A DNA stretch of 64,000 bases, from assembly GCF_000223215.1 (NCBI RefSeq), contig NC_017243.1, positions 2,976,001 to 3,040,000 on the forward strand. Direction: 5' to 3'. Below, piece by piece: positions 968 to 42,260 of the stretch. This DNA comes from Brachyspira intermedia PWS/A (lineage in GTDB: Bacteria > Spirochaetota > Brachyspiria > Brachyspirales > Brachyspiraceae). The position numbers and the translations under genes are program-made. The notes under the pieces are model-generated. The model was not told the origin of the DNA, ran no database searches, and saw only the letters and a program-made list of their open reading frames with translations. Position 1 is the first letter of the stretch. Every line of letters begins with the position of its first letter.

Positions 968-1924
968 TTATTTAGTTAAAACATTTATAGGATTTCCTTC
1001 CAAAAATGCTTTTATATTCTCATAAACTTTATGCATGAGTCTAGTTCTAGCCTCTAAAGTATTGCCTGCAAAATGCGGAGTTATATAACAATTCTTAGCA
1101 GTAAGCAAAGGATTATCTTCTGTAGGAGGCTCTTTTGAAAGCACATCTAAAGCGGCACCAGCTATAATATCATTATTCAAAGCATAAGCCAAATCTTTTT
1201 CAACTATCACTCCGCCCCTTGAAGTATTGATTAAAAATGCTGTTTTTTTCATCTTTGAAAGCAAATCTATATTAACAATATTTTCTGTTTCTTTATTTAA
1301 AGGTGCATTAAGAGATAAAAAATCGGCTCTCTCAAAAAGTTCATCTATACTAGAAGCATTTTCAACATTCTCTTTTTTACTTATTGAATAAACTAAAACT
1401 TTCATTCCCATTGCCTTAGCCATTTTTGCAACTTCTTTTCCTATATCTCCAAATCCAAATATACCCATAGTTTTATTTTCTATCTCCATTAAAGGATAAG
1501 AACTAAAAGAATAATCTTTGCATTTTATCCAATCGCCATTATGAACCTGATTATTATGTTCAACTATCCTAAAAGAAAGAGATAATACAAAAGCCATCAC
1601 AAGCTGAGCCACAGACTGCGGGCCGTATCCTCTTACATTAGTAACAGTAATTCCTAATTCTTTAGCAGCTTCAATATCCACAACATTATATCCTGTAGCA
1701 AGCATTCCTATATATTTTAAATTTGGAAGCGACTGCATTAACTTTTTATCAATTACAACTTTACTGTTTAATATTCCCCAAGCATCTTTAGCTGCTTCAT
1801 ACACTTTATTATAATCAGTTCTATCATAAACAGTTAAATCAGATATGCTTTCTATTTCTGCCCAAGATATATCTCCCGGATTCAATATAAATCCGTCAAG
1901 CACTACTATTTTTGGTTTATTCAT
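968..1924 (-). CDS. D-isomer-specific 2-hydroxyacid dehydrogenase (glycerate/phosphoglycerate dehydrogenase family)
   Basis: The 318-residue protein has normal length for the NAD-dependent D-2-hydroxyacid dehydrogenase family, cytosolic enzymes that interconvert 2-oxoacids and D-2-hydroxyacids. The nucleotide motif GFGDIGKEVAKMAKAMGM is seen near residue 157, followed by the catalytic Arg in INTSRGGVI, the Glu in LSKEPP and the catalytic His in YITPHFAGNT. The substrate could be hydroxypyruvate, glyoxylate or another 2-oxoacid; the sequence does not decide. It is monocistronic, with ATG start and an AAGGAAC ribosome site. Its only clear promoter is the end of the neighbouring repeat element at 1956-1984. 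Confidence 0.85.
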   Translation of the reverse strand: MNKPKIVVLDGFILNPGDISWAEIESISDLTVYDRTDYNKVYEAAKDAWGILNSKVVIDKKLMQSLPNLKYIGMLATGYNVVDIEAAKELGITVTNVRGYGPQSVAQLVMAFVLSLSFRIVEHNNQVHNGDWIKCKDYSFSSYPLMEIENKTMGIFGFGDIGKEVAKMAKAMGMKVLVYSISKKENVENASSIDELFERADFLSLNAPLNKETENIVNIDLLSKMKKTAFLINTSRGGVIVEKDLAYALNNDIIAGAALDVLSKEPPTEDNPLLTAKNCYITPHFAGNTLEARTRLMHKVYENIKAFLEGNPINVLTK

Positions 1925-4047: not shown

Positions 4048-4102
4048 AATTGTAAACTCAAATAGTTTTTAAAGTTGACAATTATGATTGTTATGTTATT
4101 AT
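4048..4102 (+). promoter_or_regulatory. BirA-type biotin operator overlapping the birA promoter
   Basis: AATTGTAAACT (4048-4058) and AGTTGACAATT (4073-4083) are inverted half-sites matching at 10 of 11 positions, separated by 14 bp. This agrees with the known bacterial BirA box, TTGTAAACC with a 14-16 bp spacer and its complement. The right half-site contains the -35 box TTGACA (4075-4080); the -10 is TATTAT (4097-4102) after 16 bp. Bound holo-BirA would block RNA polymerase, giving biotin-dependent autorepression of birA-bioB-bioD. Confidence 0.75.
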
Positions 4103-4110
4103 TCTCAATT

Positions 4111-5094
4111 ATGGGAAAAAATTTAAAAGAAAATATAATATCAATACTAGAATCAAATAAGGGATTATTCATATCAGGCGAAAAACTAGCAAATGATTTG
4201 AATGTAAGTAGGGCTGCCGTTTGGAAAGTTATAAAATCTTTGAAAAATGAAGGTTATGATATTCTTTCTGTATCAAATAAAGGCTATGCTCTATCAAAAG
4301 AAACAGATATATTATCATCAAAAATAATAAAAGATAATATGCCTAAATATAGAGATAACTTCAACTTTGTAATATATAAAACTGTAGAATCTACAAATAT
4401 TGTAGCAAGAGGCATGGCAATGAACGGAGCTGACAGCGGAACCGTAGTAATTGCAGAAGAACAAACAAGCGGATACGGAAGAAATGGAAAATCTTTCTTC
4501 TCGCCTTATGGTACAGGAATATATATGAGCATTATACTCAATCTAAAAAAAGAGAAAAAGATTTTTAATAGTTCTTTTATCACTACTGCTGCCGCTATGG
4601 CTGTGTCAAAATCTATAGAAGAAATTTCAAATGAAAATACCCAGATTAAATGGGTTAATGATGTATTTATAAATGGTAAAAAAGTATGCGGAATACTCAC
4701 TGAAGGGGCTTTCAGTTTTGAAGATGGTAAATTAGATTATGCTGTTATAGGAATAGGTATAAATGTTAATTTCCCTAAGAATGGTTTTCCTGAAGAAATT
4801 AATAATATAGCTGTTTCAATAAATAAAATGCAAAATAACAAAGATATAAGAAATATTTTAATAGCTAAGATATTAGAAAGAATGTATGAATACTATTTTA
4901 ATAATGTGGCATTCTATGATGAATACAAAAAACGTTCTTTTTTAATAGGAAAAAAAGTTTCGCTTAATATAGACAATGAAGAGCATATAGTAAAAGTATT
5001 GGATATAGATAAAACTTTTGCTCTCGTAGCGGAATTTCAAGACGGTAAAATTGATAGAATAGTTTCAGGAAGTGTAAATCATAGAGTATCATAA
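4111..5094 (+). CDS. birA: Bifunctional biotin-[acetyl-CoA-carboxylase] ligase / biotin operon repressor
   Basis: The 327-residue protein joins an N-terminal winged helix (LANDLNVSRAAVWKVIKSL) to the biotin-protein ligase domain with SGYGRNGKSFFSP, IKWVNDVFINGKKVCGIL and GIGINVNFP, plus the C-terminal SH3-like domain. It makes biotinyl-AMP, biotinylates carrier lysines (for example the mmdC product in this window) and represses biotin genes. I take ATG 4111 because the frame-extending TTG at 4075 is the -35 box itself. The -10 box ends at 4102, so the transcript should start only one or two bases before this ATG and no Shine-Dalgarno is present: it may be leaderless. First gene of the biotin cluster. 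Confidence 0.9.
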   Translation: MGKNLKENIISILESNKGLFISGEKLANDLNVSRAAVWKVIKSLKNEGYDILSVSNKGYALSKETDILSSKIIKDNMPKYRDNFNFVIYKTVESTNIVARGMAMNGADSGTVVIAEEQTSGYGRNGKSFFSPYGTGIYMSIILNLKKEKKIFNSSFITTAAAMAVSKSIEEISNENTQIKWVNDVFINGKKVCGILTEGAFSFEDGKLDYAVIGIGINVNFPKNGFPEEINNIAVSINKMQNNKDIRNILIAKILERMYEYYFNNVAFYDEYKKRSFLIGKKVSLNIDNEEHIVKVLDIDKTFALVAEFQDGKIDRIVSGSVNHRVS

Positions 5095-5108: not shown

Positions 5109-6109
5109 ATGAGTAACATAGATTTAATTATAAAAAAGAGATATCTTTAGAAGAATTAAAAGAGAAAATAATAAAAGGTTATGATATAACAAAAGAAGAG
5201 GCTATAAAATTAGTAGAAGCACCATTAGAAGATTTATGCTCTGTGGCTAATGGAATAAGAAAATATTTCTGCTCTAATATATTTGATATGTGTTCAATAA
5301 TCAATGCTAAAAGCGGAAAATGCTCAGAAAACTGTAAATTCTGTGCACAGTCATCTCATTATGATACAAAATGCGATGAGTACGATATTCTAGATAAAGA
5401 AAAAATATTAGAACAAGGAAAAAGCGATTTTAATAAAGGTGTCTTAAGATATTCTATAGTAACATCAGGAAGAGCTTTATACGGAAAAGAGATCGATGAA
5501 GTTTATGATGCTATAGAAACCATTAATAAAGAAACTGAAGGATATGTATGTGCTTCTTTAGGCTTGCTTGATGAGGAAGGATTCAGCAAAATGAAGAATG
5601 CAGGACTTAAAAGAGTTCATAATAATTTAGAAGCTTCAAGAAATTTCTTTCCTAAAGTATGCACTACTCATACTTATGATGATAAAATCAATGCTATAAA
5701 ATCAGCACAAAAAGCAGGAATGGTTGTATGCAGCGGTGGTATTATGGGAATGGGTGAAACTTGGGAAGACAGAATTGATATGGCAATAGAGCTTAGAGAA
5801 TTAGGAATAATGTCAATACCTGTTAATATGCTTAATCCTATAGCAAGCACTCCTTTTGAAAATATTAAACCTCTTACTGAAGATGATATGAAAAGAATTG
5901 TTGCTATATACAGATTCATTAACCCTAGAGCATTCATAAGACTTGCAGGCGGAAGAGGACTTATGAAAGATAAAGGAAGATCATGCTTTTTATCCGGAGC
6001 TAATGCCGCTATAACAGGCGATATGCTTACAACTGCAGGCATTTCAATAGAAACAGATAAAAAAATGGTTGAAGAATTAGGATATAAAATACAGTTAAAA
6101 GAAGACTAA
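5109..6109 (+). CDS. bioB: Biotin synthase, apparent frameshift at an A-run near the start
   Basis: This radical-SAM enzyme inserts sulfur into dethiobiotin. The radical-SAM motif is visible as SGKCSENCKFCAQSSHY, with later YNV-type residues RVHNNLEAS and the GGRG loop in RLAGGRGLMKDKGRSC. The natural start is ATG 5109, after an AGGAGG ribosome site, reading MSNIDLIIKK; the A-run at 5132-5137 has six A and the frame then stops at TAG 5148. Seven A would continue into EISLEELKEKIIKGYD and the intact remainder. A GTG at 5243 could start the remainder but has no ribosome site and would cut the N-terminal helix. Sequencing error, slippage or true mutation are all possible. It lies 14 bases after birA. 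Confidence 0.85.
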
Positions 6110-6143: not shown

Positions 6144-6791
6144 ATGGCTAAAGCTATTTTTATAACAGCAACAGGTACTGATATAGGTAAAACTTATGTA
6201 TCAGGCTTAATTGCAAAACATATGAAAGATAAAGGATTGAATATCGGATACTATAAAGCAGCATTAAGCGGAAGTCTTGATATAACAGACAGCGATGCTT
6301 GGTATGTAAAACAGCAGGCCGATTTATTAGATTCTTATGATGAAATGGTGTCATACACTTATAAGCATGCCTATTCCCCTCATTTGGCAGCACAAATTGA
6401 GGGGAATCCTCCGGATATAAAGGTTATAAAAAATGCTTATAAAAATATAGATAACAGGCATGATTATATGATAGTAGAAGGAAGCGGCGGTATAATATGC
6501 CCTATTCGCTATGATAATAATCAAAAAATATTTTTAGAAGATATCATAAAAGAATTAAATATACCTTCTCTTATAATAGCGGATGCAGGACTTGGAACAA
6601 TAAATTCTACAGTTTTAACTATAGAATATATGAGAAGTAAAAATCTAAAAGTTAATGGTGTGATATTAAATAGATTTGAAATTGCAAATGAAATGCATGA
6701 TGATAATAGAAAAATGATAGAGGAGATGACAGGAGTAAAAATTATAGGCGTTGTTATAGACGGTATTTTAAAACTAGATGAAAAAATATAG
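6144..6791 (+). CDS. bioD: ATP-dependent dethiobiotin synthetase
   Basis: The 215-residue protein matches the family length and carries the P-loop TATGTDIGKT at residues 8-17, the DITDSDAW and YKAALSG segment for substrate and ATP binding, and VEGSGGIICPI (residues 112-122). It closes the ureido ring of 7,8-diaminopelargonate with CO2 and ATP in the cytosol. It follows bioB by 34 bases and so lies under the BirA-controlled promoter. A repeat element separates it from bioA, the preceding pathway step. No bioF or bioC is in the window. Confidence 0.92.
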   Translation: MAKAIFITATGTDIGKTYVSGLIAKHMKDKGLNIGYYKAALSGSLDITDSDAWYVKQQADLLDSYDEMVSYTYKHAYSPHLAAQIEGNPPDIKVIKNAYKNIDNRHDYMIVEGSGGIICPIRYDNNQKIFLEDIIKELNIPSLIIADAGLGTINSTVLTIEYMRSKNLKVNGVILNRFEIANEMHDDNRKMIEEMTGVKIIGVVIDGILKLDEKI

Positions 6792-6826
6792 AAACTCTAT
6801 TTGAATAGAATAATATTTTTACTTAA

Positions 6827-7217
6827 TATATACATAAAAAAATATACTTTGTCAAAAACAATTTATACTTTTGTTGTTATTCTGGGGCTTTGCCCCCGCT
6901 GTGCGTGCCTACGGCAACCCCACTTCTTTTGCGACCGTAGGGAGTGCCTGTGGTATTGCCACATACGAAGTACGCCTACGGCGAGAATCAGGCACAGCCC
7001 GCCTCGCGAAGCGTGCCTACGGCAGGAGAAAGGCTATATTGTAGCTTAAATTTAATAGTTTATATACATGTAAAATGAAATTAGTATTATTAGTACTAAT
7101 TTTATACTTGCACTTTCGCGTAGCGTATCCGAGTTTATCGAGGATATAAGGTTCTTTGACGAAGTCGCTGGAAAATAACAACAAAAAAATTGACAAACTT
7201 ACAAATTTTTAGTATAT
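6827..7217 (+). mobile_element. MITE-like element, copy 3, inserted between bioD and bioA
   Basis: The left Y end (TATATACATAAA to TTTGTCAA, 6827-6855) and right X end (TTGACA 7190 to TATATG 7218) bound a roughly 390-bp gene-free stretch full of GC-rich inverted words such as GCGTGCCTACGGCA and GTACGCCTACGGCG. It contains TATCCGAGTTTATCGAGG, which recurs in inverted, slightly diverged form in the fragment near 42230. Short open frames inside are not genes. Confidence 0.75.
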
Positions 7218-7218
7218 G
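7190..7218 (+). promoter_or_regulatory. Repeat-borne promoter facing bioA
   Basis: TTGACA (7190-7195), a 17-bp spacer and TATATG (7213-7218) form a good sigma-70 promoter at the X end of the element, with a predicted start about 15 bases before the bioA ATG at 7239. It would give bioA transcription independent of the BirA operator upstream. Confidence 0.6.
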
Positions 7219-7238
7219 TACTTAATAAAGGACTAGTT

Positions 7239-8579
7239 ATGACATTAGAAGAAAAGGATTTAAAATATATTTGGCATCCTTGCTCGCAGATGAAAGATTA
7301 TGAGGAGCTTCCTCCAATCATTATAGACAGAGGAAAAGGAATTTATTTATACGATAAAAATGGAAAAGAGTATATTGATATTGTAAGTTCTTGGTGGTGC
7401 AATTTACTTGGGCATTGCAATGAAAAAATAAATGCCAATATCAAAGCACAGCTTGACAGATTAGAGCATGTAATATTTGCAAACTTCTCTCATGAAGGAG
7501 CTATTAAATTATGCGAAGAGCTTATAAAAATAATTCCTAATGGACTTACTAAATTCAATTTTTCTGATAATGGTTCTTCATCTGTAGAAGCTGCATTAAA
7601 AATGGCTTTTCAATATCAGCATCAAATAGGAAATACAAAAAGAACAAGATTCATGTGTTTTACTGATGGTTATCATGGTGAAACTATTGGTGCATTATCC
7701 GTTGGAAGTTTGGACTTATATGCAAAAATATACAAGCCAATGTTAATGGACACTATACATATAGAAGCACCTGACTGCTACAGATGTAAATACAATCAAA
7801 ACAGAGATACTTGCAAATGCGAATGTTTTGAAGATGCTGAAAAAAAGTTTAAAGAATACGGAGAAGAAACTTGTGCCGTTATAGTAGAGCCTTTGCTTCA
7901 GGCTAGTGCAGGAATGAGAATATATCCTCCCCTATACTTGAAAAAATTAAGAGAGCTTTGCGATAAATACAATGTAGTTTTTATTGTTGATGAGATAGCT
8001 ACAAATTTTGGACGCACAGGAAAAATGTTTGCATGCGATCATGCCAATATTACACCCGATATAATGTGTATTTCAAAAGGCTTAACAGGCGGATACATGC
8101 CTATGGCAATAACAATAACAACAGACAAAATATACAATGCTTTCTATGCTGACTATAATGAAGGAAAAGCATTCATGCATAGTCATACTTACAGCGGAAA
8201 TCCTCTTGGCTGTTCTGCTGCTTTGGCTGTACAAAAAGTTTTGAGAGAAGATGATATTATAAATAAGGCACAAGTAAGAGCTAAATATTTAAATAATAAA
8301 TTAAAAGAAAAATTACTTGATCATAAAAATATAGGAGAGATTAGAAATATAGGGCTTATCAATGCCATGGAATTAGTTACTGATAAAAATACAAAAGAAG
8401 GATTTGACTCTAAACTTAGAATGGGTTATCAAATATATAGAAAGGCACTTCAAAGAGGACTTCTATTAAGACCTTTGGGAAATGTAATTTATTTTAATCC
8501 GCCTTTAATTATAAATGAAGATGAAATAGATAATGCTGTTGATTTATGTGTATCTTCTATAAATGATATACTGAAATGA
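7239..8579 (+). CDS. bioA: Adenosylmethionine-8-amino-7-oxononanoate aminotransferase
   Basis: This 446-residue class III PLP aminotransferase makes 7,8-diaminopelargonate using S-adenosylmethionine as amino donor. Visible are the N-terminal IWHPCSQMKDY typical of BioA, the GSSSVEAALKMAFQY segment, FTDGYHGETIGALSVG, the cofactor Asp in FIVDEIATNFGRTGKMFAC and the Schiff-base Lys in CISKGLTGGYMPMA. A Cys-rich insertion (CYRCKYNQNRDTCKCECF, near residue 186) is present, known in other BioA proteins of this subtype. The ATG follows an AAAGGAC ribosome site. It is separated from bioD by the repeat element and is probably expressed from its promoter. Confidence 0.93.
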   Translation: MTLEEKDLKYIWHPCSQMKDYEELPPIIIDRGKGIYLYDKNGKEYIDIVSSWWCNLLGHCNEKINANIKAQLDRLEHVIFANFSHEGAIKLCEELIKIIPNGLTKFNFSDNGSSSVEAALKMAFQYQHQIGNTKRTRFMCFTDGYHGETIGALSVGSLDLYAKIYKPMLMDTIHIEAPDCYRCKYNQNRDTCKCECFEDAEKKFKEYGEETCAVIVEPLLQASAGMRIYPPLYLKKLRELCDKYNVVFIVDEIATNFGRTGKMFACDHANITPDIMCISKGLTGGYMPMAITITTDKIYNAFYADYNEGKAFMHSHTYSGNPLGCSAALAVQKVLREDDIINKAQVRAKYLNNKLKEKLLDHKNIGEIRNIGLINAMELVTDKNTKEGFDSKLRMGYQIYRKALQRGLLLRPLGNVIYFNPPLIINEDEIDNAVDLCVSSINDILK

Positions 8580-8658: not shown

Positions 8659-8999
8659 TTATAAACTTAAAATTTATAGTATATACTAAAAAATTTTTAA
8701 CTTTGTAAACCTATGTCTTTATATAGAATTGTCAACTTTTTCCCGCCGCAAAAAGTTGCAAAAAGTGCAAGTATAAAATTAGTACTAAATAATACTAATT
8801 TAGTTTTACATGTAAGATAATTTATTAAATTAAAGCCCAAATGTAGCCTTTTTGCTTCTCGCCACAGGCGGGCTTCGCCTGTGGCAACAAAAGAAGTTGG
8901 GGTGTGGGGGCTAGTCCCCACTAATAATAAAAATAAGAAAATAATTTTCGATAAAATATAGTTGTTTAGGTATATACTAAAAATTTTTAACTTTGTCAA
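8659..8999. mobile_element. MITE-like element, copy 4, with abutting extra ends
   Basis: An isolated X end (8659-8685) abuts the left X end (from 8680) of an element ending in a Y end at 8949-8976. A third, left-oriented X end follows at 8971-8999, sharing the TATATA with the previous one. The interior carries CCCGCCGCAAAAAGTTGC and a GGGGCTAGTCCCC hairpin. This is a composite of at least two insertions sharing TA-rich borders and fills the region between bioA and the peptide-binding lipoprotein. Confidence 0.6.
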
Positions 9000-39385: not shown

Positions 39386-39565
39386 TATATACCTAAACAA
39401 ATATATTTTGTCAATTCTAGTTTTTTAAATTTTATTATTTGTGATGGCACACAGACGTGCCGCTCTGCGTACTTCATAACACCCCACTTCTTTTGCGACC
39501 AAAGGAAGTGCTGCGAGAAAAAGAACAACATAAAAATTGACAAACTTAAAAATTTTAAGTATATA
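39386..39565 (+). mobile_element. MITE-like element, copy 6, between ankyrin genes 1 and 2
   Basis: The Y end (TATATACCTAAACAAA, 39386) and X end (TTGACA 39537-39542, 17 bp, TATATA 39560-39565) bound a short 180-bp form. It begins 10 bases after ankyrin gene 1 and its X end faces ankyrin gene 2, whose ATG is 35 bases beyond the -10 box. Confidence 0.75.
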
Positions 39566-39599
39566 CTAATAAAAAACTTGACTATAGGATATATTGTTT

Positions 39600-40622
39600 A
39601 TGAAATATTTATTAATTTTTTTACTTTCTATAATTATATTTTCTTGTAATACCAAAGAATCAAACAATAATAATACAGATAAAGCAGCTATAAATTTAGA
39701 TGAAAGTACAGATAATAATATAAATAAAACAGAACAATCAAATACAGACGATAAAGATAATAAATCAAATAATTCATCAATAAATACAAATGAAACAGAA
39801 GAAACAACATATTATTCATACACAGATAAAGAAATTATATCTTTTATAGAATCAGGAGATTTTCAAACAATCAAAAAATTAATCGAATCAAAAAGTTTAG
39901 ATGTTAATTATAACTTAGAGATAGATGAATATTCCAAGTCAACCCCTTTAATAAAAGCTATAGAATATAAGCAAACTGATATTATAAATTATTTATTAGA
40001 AAATAATGCGGATATTAATTTAAAAGAAGAACTTACAGGCTTTACTCCTCTTATGGCTAGCTTTCATAATATTGCTATAGCAGAGCTTTTAATTGAAAAA
40101 GGTGCTGACATTGAAGCAAGGAATGTTGACGGAATTAATGCTTTAGTTTATGCGGTTTCTTTAAATGATGAAGAGATGGTAAAATTTTTACTTGCGAAAG
40201 GAGCTGACGCCAATACAGTATGCGAAATAGAAAATGAACATATTTATATGCCGCCTACTCCTTTAATGAATGCTGTTTATAACGGAAACACTAATATAAT
40301 AAATATGTTATTGGAAAATGGTGCTGATATTAATTATACCAATGATTCTGATATGACTCCTTTAATTTATGCTGCTTATAAAGGAAACACTAATATAATA
40401 AATACATTATTAGAAAATGGTGCTGATATTAATTATACCAATTATTATGGAATGACTGCTTTAATGTATGCAGCAAGTTATAATCAATTTGAAGCAGTAA
40501 AAATACTTTTAGAAAATAATGCAGATACTTCTATAACTGATGAAGATGGTAGGACTGCACTTGATTGGGCAAAATTAGAAAATTTTGAAGATATAGTTGA
40601 GCTTCTTGAAGAATATAATTAA
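39600..40622 (+). CDS. Ankyrin-repeat lipoprotein 2
   Basis: The 340-residue paralogue of copy 1, with the same signal and linker but a different repeat content: it lacks the unit containing EAMYDEELVRKLIDLGADV found in copies 1 and 3, and has gained an extra NGADINYTN unit (GNTNIINMLLENGADINYTN then GNTNIINTLLENGADINYTN). Such repeat loss and gain points to recombination between near-identical units. I start it at ATG 39600, after TAGGA, and not at the upstream in-frame TTG. Its only evident promoter is the repeat end just upstream. Confidence 0.88.
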   Translation: MKYLLIFLLSIIIFSCNTKESNNNNTDKAAINLDESTDNNINKTEQSNTDDKDNKSNNSSINTNETEETTYYSYTDKEIISFIESGDFQTIKKLIESKSLDVNYNLEIDEYSKSTPLIKAIEYKQTDIINYLLENNADINLKEELTGFTPLMASFHNIAIAELLIEKGADIEARNVDGINALVYAVSLNDEEMVKFLLAKGADANTVCEIENEHIYMPPTPLMNAVYNGNTNIINMLLENGADINYTNDSDMTPLIYAAYKGNTNIINTLLENGADINYTNYYGMTALMYAASYNQFEAVKILLENNADTSITDEDGRTALDWAKLENFEDIVELLEEYN

Positions 40623-40632
40623 TACTTTTTAA

Positions 40633-40881
40633 TATATACCTAAACAAATATATTTTGTCAATTCTAGTTTTTTAAATTTTATTATTTGTGATGGCACACA
40701 GACGTGCCGCTCTGCGTACTTCGTAACACCCCACTTCTTTTGCGACCAAAGGAAGTACTGCGACTGAAAGGAGTACCTGACGAAATCCACTGTAAGTGTA
40801 GGTATGGTATTGCCGCTGTAGCGTGCGGCTGGAAAAAGAACAACATAAAAATTGACAAACTTAAAAATTTTAAGTATAAAC
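40633..40881 (+). mobile_element. MITE-like element, copy 7, between ankyrin genes 2 and 3
   Basis: The Y end (40633) and about 130 following bases are nearly identical to copy 6, then an extra segment (GACTGAAAGGAGTACCTGAC to GCGTGCGGCTGG) precedes the X end (TTGACA 40852-40857, 17 bp, TATAAA). It was evidently duplicated together with the ankyrin gene and then altered. Confidence 0.7.
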
Positions 40882-42113: not shown

Positions 42114-42260
42114 AATATATACTGAAATTTTTTAAGTTTGTCATTTTTTTATTCAACTTTTTCCCGCCGCAAGCCTACCTAAAGGTACCCTCTTCAGTCG
42201 CAGGCGGACAGAGTCAAAGAACCTTATATCCTAGATAAACTTATATACAATTATCGAGTG
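42114..42260 (-). mobile_element. MITE-like fragment downstream of ankyrin gene 3
   Basis: An X-type end (TATATACTGAAA to TTTGTCA) is followed by CCCGCCGCAAGCC and a segment matching, in inverted orientation, the ATATAAGGTTCTTTGAC part of copy 3. No second end is seen. Confidence 0.5.

Follow-up and report, generated by a model that had tools for sequence, protein, structure and literature searches.

MITEs of the IS630/Tc1-mariner type duplicate a TA target and have short inverted ends. The Correia elements of Neisseria are MITEs with sigma-70 promoters able to drive neighbouring genes, as described in PMC10969869. For MITEAba12 of Acinetobacter, outward sigma-70-like promoters are predicted at both ends and RNA is described from one end (PMC6382973). 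In biotin operons under BirA, the published operator consensus is TTGTAAACC-[N14/15]-GGTTTACAA (PMC545781). We analysed a 64,000-nt window of the Brachyspira intermedia PWS/A genome (NC_017243.1, positions 2,976,001-3,040,000; this genome is G000 below), and all coordinates given here are those of the window. The genes of the window, in agreement with the family models, show the biotin cluster in the order birA, bioB, bioD, repeat element, bioA. The genes and the operator are as follows.

4050-4081, plus strand: BirA-type operator TTGTAAACT-N14-AGTTGACAA, whose right half includes the birA promoter -35 (TTGACA)
4111-5094, plus strand: birA, biotin ligase with an N-terminal HTH of the repressor type (HTH_11 57.4 bits, cut-off 25; BPL_LplA_LipB 75.9 bits; TIGR00121 ligase domain 153 bits)
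5109-6109, plus strand: bioB (NCBIfam TIGR00433, 386 bits), frame unlike relatives at an A-run near the 5' end
6144-6791, plus strand: bioD (NCBIfam TIGR00347, 143 bits), six codons shorter at its end than in relatives
7239-8579, plus strand: bioA (NCBIfam TIGR00508, 580 bits, cut-off 405)

The birA ATG was placed from comparison with relatives. The lengths of A-runs in bioB and bioD (5109-5145 and 6770-6795) depart from those of close relatives; the start frame of bioB is broken at its A-run, and it is the A-run length difference that ends bioD six codons early. The PWS/A genome was sequenced with 454 FLX at 14x (PMC3163572), so 454 sequencing error could account for the A-run differences. 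The bioB and bioD reading frames are open in the relative G022. A canonical bioF was found above the TIGR00858 cut-off in 0 of 26 Brachyspira genomes, and the biotin cluster therefore seems to begin at the bioA step.

The insertion between bioD and bioA is 384 bp long, with edges at 6831-7214 set by comparison with empty sites, and is flanked by a TA duplication.

6829-6830: TA target duplication, left copy (empty-site comparison)
6829-6855, minus strand: L end, outward TTGACA-17-TATATA, reading antisense into the bioD 3' end
6831-7214: non-autonomous MITE-like element, L end on the left and R end on the right
6890-7030: G+C-rich middle of the element, far shorter in the copy of G022 by alignment
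7190-7216, plus strand: R end, TTGACAAACTTACAAATTTTTAGTATA
7190-7195, plus strand: candidate -35, TTGACA, entirely within the element
7213-7218, plus strand: candidate -10, TATATG, made of the element TA, the duplicated TA and the native TG
7215-7216: TA target duplication, right copy (empty-site comparison)
7227-7232, plus strand: AAAGGA, ribosome-binding-site-like, left over from the ancestral bioD-bioA gap

bioD and bioA are adjacent in 20 of the 26 Brachyspira genomes, and 18 of these 20 lack the element, the gap there being 12-124 bp. The carriers among the 20 are G000 and its relative G022 only, where the element sits at an identical position and the gap reaches 447 and 333, respectively. 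The gaps of G006, G010 and G025 were read from the printed sequence, the automatic ORF search having taken bioB for bioD. An earlier note on this DNA had claimed that a copy of a repeat splits the biotin cluster, and had proposed to check whether related strains lack it. Both the split and the absence from most relatives were confirmed, and 6827-7238, which the note had given as the element, found 95 matches when used as a query against its own genome. The repeat is thus real, but its extent had to be corrected to the edges given above. The filled flanks, ...ACTTAATATA / TATATGTACTTAATAAAGG..., compared with the empty ...AATATATGTACTTAATAAAGG of G025 and G010, fit a single insertion at TA with duplication of the TA; at bioD-bioA alone the length of the duplication is ambiguous (TA or TATA), because the target is TATA-rich. 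Target-site duplication was examined at two sites, and the second filled and empty pair, the bioA stop codon of G014 compared with that of G024, again showed a TA duplication. In G014 (L038) the copy is inserted at the stop codon itself and the new stop comes from the element end.

The copies of G000 and G022 have common boundaries and, outside the G+C-rich middle, are one substitution and one A-run length apart; in the middle, G000 has about 97 additional bases. G+C-rich palindromic modules (6890-7030), with similar ones in other copies, are gained or lost within the element. Per 200 bases, divergence is about 0.5-6% in the flanking genes of the two genomes and 17/200 upstream of birA. Over 6827-7285, the element diverges far less between the two genomes than its flanks do. 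That the element is more alike than its surroundings suggests that a short tract was exchanged recently or that gene conversion took place; selection on the element could also have produced this likeness.

The element belongs to a large family, with over a hundred copies in this genome. A right-end pattern with up to 3 mismatches gave at least 129 matches in the PWS/A genome vs 2 with the reversed-pattern control. Two end types were recognised, L (TTGACAAARTATADTTGTTTAGGTATA) and R (TTGACAAASTTAAAAATTTTYAGTATA), and 101 own-genome blocks (392 kb) held 127 L and 127 R ends at up to 4 mismatches. Both types carry TTGACAAA and GTATA and face outward, and are therefore terminal inverted repeats. 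They form 94 pairs enclosing 129-534 bp (40 LR, 40 RL, 9 LL and 5 RR), and 66 ends are unpaired. R ends with up to 2 mismatches were found in at least 23 of the 26 Brachyspira genomes, with at least 228 in the richest and reversed-pattern controls all at 0; these genome counts are perhaps lower bounds, because the pattern search missed at least two exact ends (1958-1984 and 8973-8999) seen by script in the window. Within the own-genome blocks there were no end pairs 800-4000 bp apart and no autonomous partner with identical ends was seen; the transposase search, which covered the DDE_3 family only, gave none in this genome and one fragment with stops in 1 of the 26 genomes. The elements are short, without a transposase gene of their own, bounded by terminal inverted repeats, flanked by a target duplication and dispersed in many copies, so the family has the features of MITEs, save a known partner. 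No Brachyspira MITE or repeat family was recognised in the open-licence literature, and the family appears to be undescribed; its kind, a MITE with outward promoters, is already known.

Several other copies were noted. At 24 junctions in the own-genome blocks a plus-strand end meets a minus-strand end with a common TATA, copies inserting side by side and forming chains. Copies or ends at 39388-39563, 40635-40878 and 42118-42144 separate tandem genes, one of which (39594-40622) is an ankyrin-repeat gene. These tandem gene copies at 39-41 kb were tried as an empty-site test, but no simple filled and empty pair was present among the matches listed. The R end at 1958-1984 points at a 2-hydroxyacid dehydrogenase gene (968-1924, minus strand), 33 bases off. 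A search of Rfam gave nothing in the element, and the single below-threshold match falls in bioD.

The regulation of the cluster was examined through its operator. The site at 4050-4081 fits the TTGTAAACC-[N14/15]-GGTTTACAA consensus and is kept upstream of birA in all 19 readable genomes, with one mismatch in G020. Genome-wide, the operator pattern gave sites in 18 of the 26 genomes (one palindromic site in 17, two in G024), and the reversed-pattern control gave one match each in 5 genomes. In PWS/A the operator upstream of birA is the single such site; bioA is thus without an operator of its own, and a separate BirA site at bioA was rejected. The earlier note was right on both counts, that a BirA operator serves birA-bioB-bioD and that bioA, beyond the element, has none. 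A consensus operator upstream of the operon and a BirA with a DNA-binding domain (HTH_11) are the features of a BirA regulon, and in the ancestral arrangement bioA would have been under the operator upstream of birA.

We then considered the promoter-like motif ahead of bioA. TTGACA at 7190 and TATATG at 7213 are 17 bases apart, and 20 bases separate the latter from the bioA ATG at 7239, positions that had been given correctly. The -10 had been taken as part of the element end, which holds for the TATA, supplied by the element and the duplication; the hexamer is only partly element, because its final TG is ancestral flank. Scores were obtained with a sigma-70-type weight matrix built from approximate E. 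coli frequencies, and came to 7.7 bits for the bioA site, 10.0 for birA and 12.7 for a perfect site. For the five nearest empty-site genomes (G007, G010, G023, G024, G025), the 120 bp that precede bioA score 1.8-4.8 at best, vs 7.7 here, so the promoter-like site was created by the insertion. Among the other 13 empty-site genomes, G014 has 9.6 bits before bioA, above G000, and the remainder have 3.5-7.5. Applied at 8 bits or more to 58 gene upstream regions, the matrix found 18 sites forward, 5 reversed and 2 in shuffled sequence (forward vs reverse P = 0.005); the bioA site lies below this level, where forward clearly exceeds reverse. Its -10 ends in G and is without the near-invariant T at position 6. 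A stricter consensus scan did not report the bioA site, and found 3 sites vs 2.8 expected, no excess over shuffles. Given the 7.7-bit score and the failure in the strict scan, what the insertion created is a candidate of moderate rather than high strength. The claim that the element gives bioA its own promoter therefore stands as far as a promoter-like site is concerned, but is weakened by the imperfect -10 and the negative strict scan. On these motifs, a promoter gain at bioA is plausible, the case being about evenly balanced.

The same motif recurs throughout the family, L and R ends being alike in having TTGACA 17 bases from an outward TATA. TTGACA is exact in 170 of the 254 ends and TATA in 235; TATA is followed by TA in 193 ends and by TG, the bioA case, in 2. 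TTGACA and TATA, common to nearly all ends, may have been conserved solely because a transposase binds them. A neighbour could be assigned to 251 ends: gene stops are faced directly by 115 of them and gene starts by 67, 15 are within an ORF and 54 have another end in between; among the start-facing ends, 14 of 67 lie 8-39 bases from the start, the bioA end being at 22. Gaps with elements (n=128) are tandem in 72 cases, convergent in 47 and divergent in 9, compared with 61, 8 and 20 for gaps without elements (n=89), these counts coming from blocks picked for holding ends, not from the whole genome, with genes taken as simple ORFs of at least 90 codons. Convergent gaps often hold an element, divergent gaps seldom. 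This avoidance of gene starts across the family argues against general selection for promoter donation, for which the 67 start-facing ends among 182 direct ones give no support; the pattern fits a purging of insertions near promoters rather than their general recruitment as promoters. Three start-facing ends, at 1317611, 2001421 and 2566697 of the chromosome, are perfect TTGACA-17-TATAAT, 23, 8 and 35 bases from their genes; they are stronger promoter candidates than the bioA end. Of these genes one matches no family, one is of the Rpn/PD-(D/E)XK nuclease family and one codes for a chorismate mutase/prephenate dehydratase.

The plus strand of the element gave no intrinsic terminator, and read-through from the BirA-regulated promoter into bioA therefore probably persists, perhaps reduced. 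Folding of the element RNA is much stronger than that of shuffles (z = -5.9). For bioA, dN/dS is 0.073 when the two carriers are compared, similar to pairs of element-free genomes, and 0.05-0.14 over the remaining 14 pairings of six genomes. The estimates come from the simple pairwise Nei-Gojobori method, with ORFs trimmed or taken from stop to stop; the sets were taken without G002, G009, G020 and G023 for birA, G014 and G018 for bioD, and G020 and G021 for bioA. bioA is under purifying selection and therefore remains in use, and a loss of its function is unsupported.

The explanation that we prefer, and to which we give an even chance, is that bioA is supplied by a weak, unregulated promoter at the element end together with read-through from the operon. 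An ancestral birA-bioB-bioD-bioA operon would have been repressed via the single BirA operator upstream of birA, until a non-autonomous, TA-inserting mini-transposon entered the short bioD-bioA gap. The TTGACA of its right end, 17 bases, TATA including the duplicated TA, and two native bases would then make up a hybrid sigma-70-like promoter with a predicted start at about 7225, 2 bases ahead of the ribosome-binding site of bioA. bioA would be transcribed partly by the remaining read-through from the biotin-regulated promoter, probably cut by about 390 untranslated, strongly folded bases, and also, weakly and constitutively, from the element end. With both sources the biotin control of bioA would be softened, not lost.

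A less probable reading, still a serious one, is that the element is a tolerated passenger, that read-through from the birA promoter feeds bioA, and that the promoter-like bases are inactive ends recognised by a transposase. The lack of a plus-strand terminator, the TATATG at the -10, the conservation of the ends whatever genes adjoin and the unchanged selection on bioA all agree with it. It accounts poorly for the best motif before bioA, which clearly outscores those of the nearest empty-site relatives, and for TTGACA-17-TATA being present in both end types despite their different middles.

We consider it improbable that the insertion is polar, the structured untranslated element cutting read-through (e.g. 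by Rho), without a promoter, and lowering bioA while biotin synthesis becomes dispensable in the lineage. The strong folding, the apparent frame differences in bioB and bioD, the missing canonical bioF and the rarity of elements in divergent gaps point that way, but dN/dS of bioA is low in both carriers, bioB and bioD are open in G022 and the A-run differences may be sequencing errors. Equally doubtful is the proposal of the earlier note, by which bioA would be transcribed mainly from the element end and would have stopped responding to biotin: bioA without an operator, TTGACA at 17-base spacing and a ribosome-binding site right after the predicted start would suit it, but the score is moderate, the -10 is imperfect and no barrier to read-through was identified, making full release of bioA from biotin unlikely.

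Returning to a weak element-end promoter acting beside operon read-through, the family as a whole can be read in the same terms, although only tentatively. Its ends might be portable, half-built promoters found genus-wide, each bringing TTGACA-17-TA, with the TA duplication completing the -10 up to its last two bases, which would come from the new site. The more than 250 ends in this one genome would then be a graded constitutive set, by which genes could be detached from metabolite-controlled operons; if true, the set would run from perfect TTGACA-17-TATAAT ends, such as that at chorismate mutase/prephenate dehydratase, to weaker, bioA-like ones. To our knowledge, few promoters are mapped in Brachyspira, and a search of the open-licence literature for transcription starts in the genus gave a single hit, which concerns Rhodobacter capsulatus. 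Close relatives in which one and the same operon, with one operator, has the site filled or empty offer a natural experiment on whether a biosynthetic gene can be uncoupled from its repressor by the end of a MITE. The locus also draws attention to a mobile family, abundant and apparently undescribed, in this animal-associated spirochaete genus.

Compared with IS630/Tc1-mariner-type MITEs, the Brachyspira element has the same TA duplication and short inverted ends; a derivation from this group would fit the duplication, but no DDE_3-type transposase was found in this genome, and the family is not placed in that group. Likened by description to the Correia elements (PMC10969869), the repeat is short, abundant and non-autonomous and has promoter-like sequence, but differs in host, sequence and ends, and promoter function is demonstrated for Correia elements, as described there, where ours is a prediction. 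Like MITEAba12, it has outward sigma-70-like motifs at both ends; MITEAba12 is described as measuring 111-114 bp, duplicating 9 bp of its target and having a resident IS as its partner (PMC6382973), whereas the Brachyspira family spans 129-534 bp, duplicates TA and has no partner found. Finally, the cluster resembles a BirA-regulated biotin operon, as described in PMC545781, in its TTGTAAACC-[N14/15]-GGTTTACAA operator and in a BirA with an HTH, but here the cluster begins with birA itself, and bioA is split off by a mobile element.
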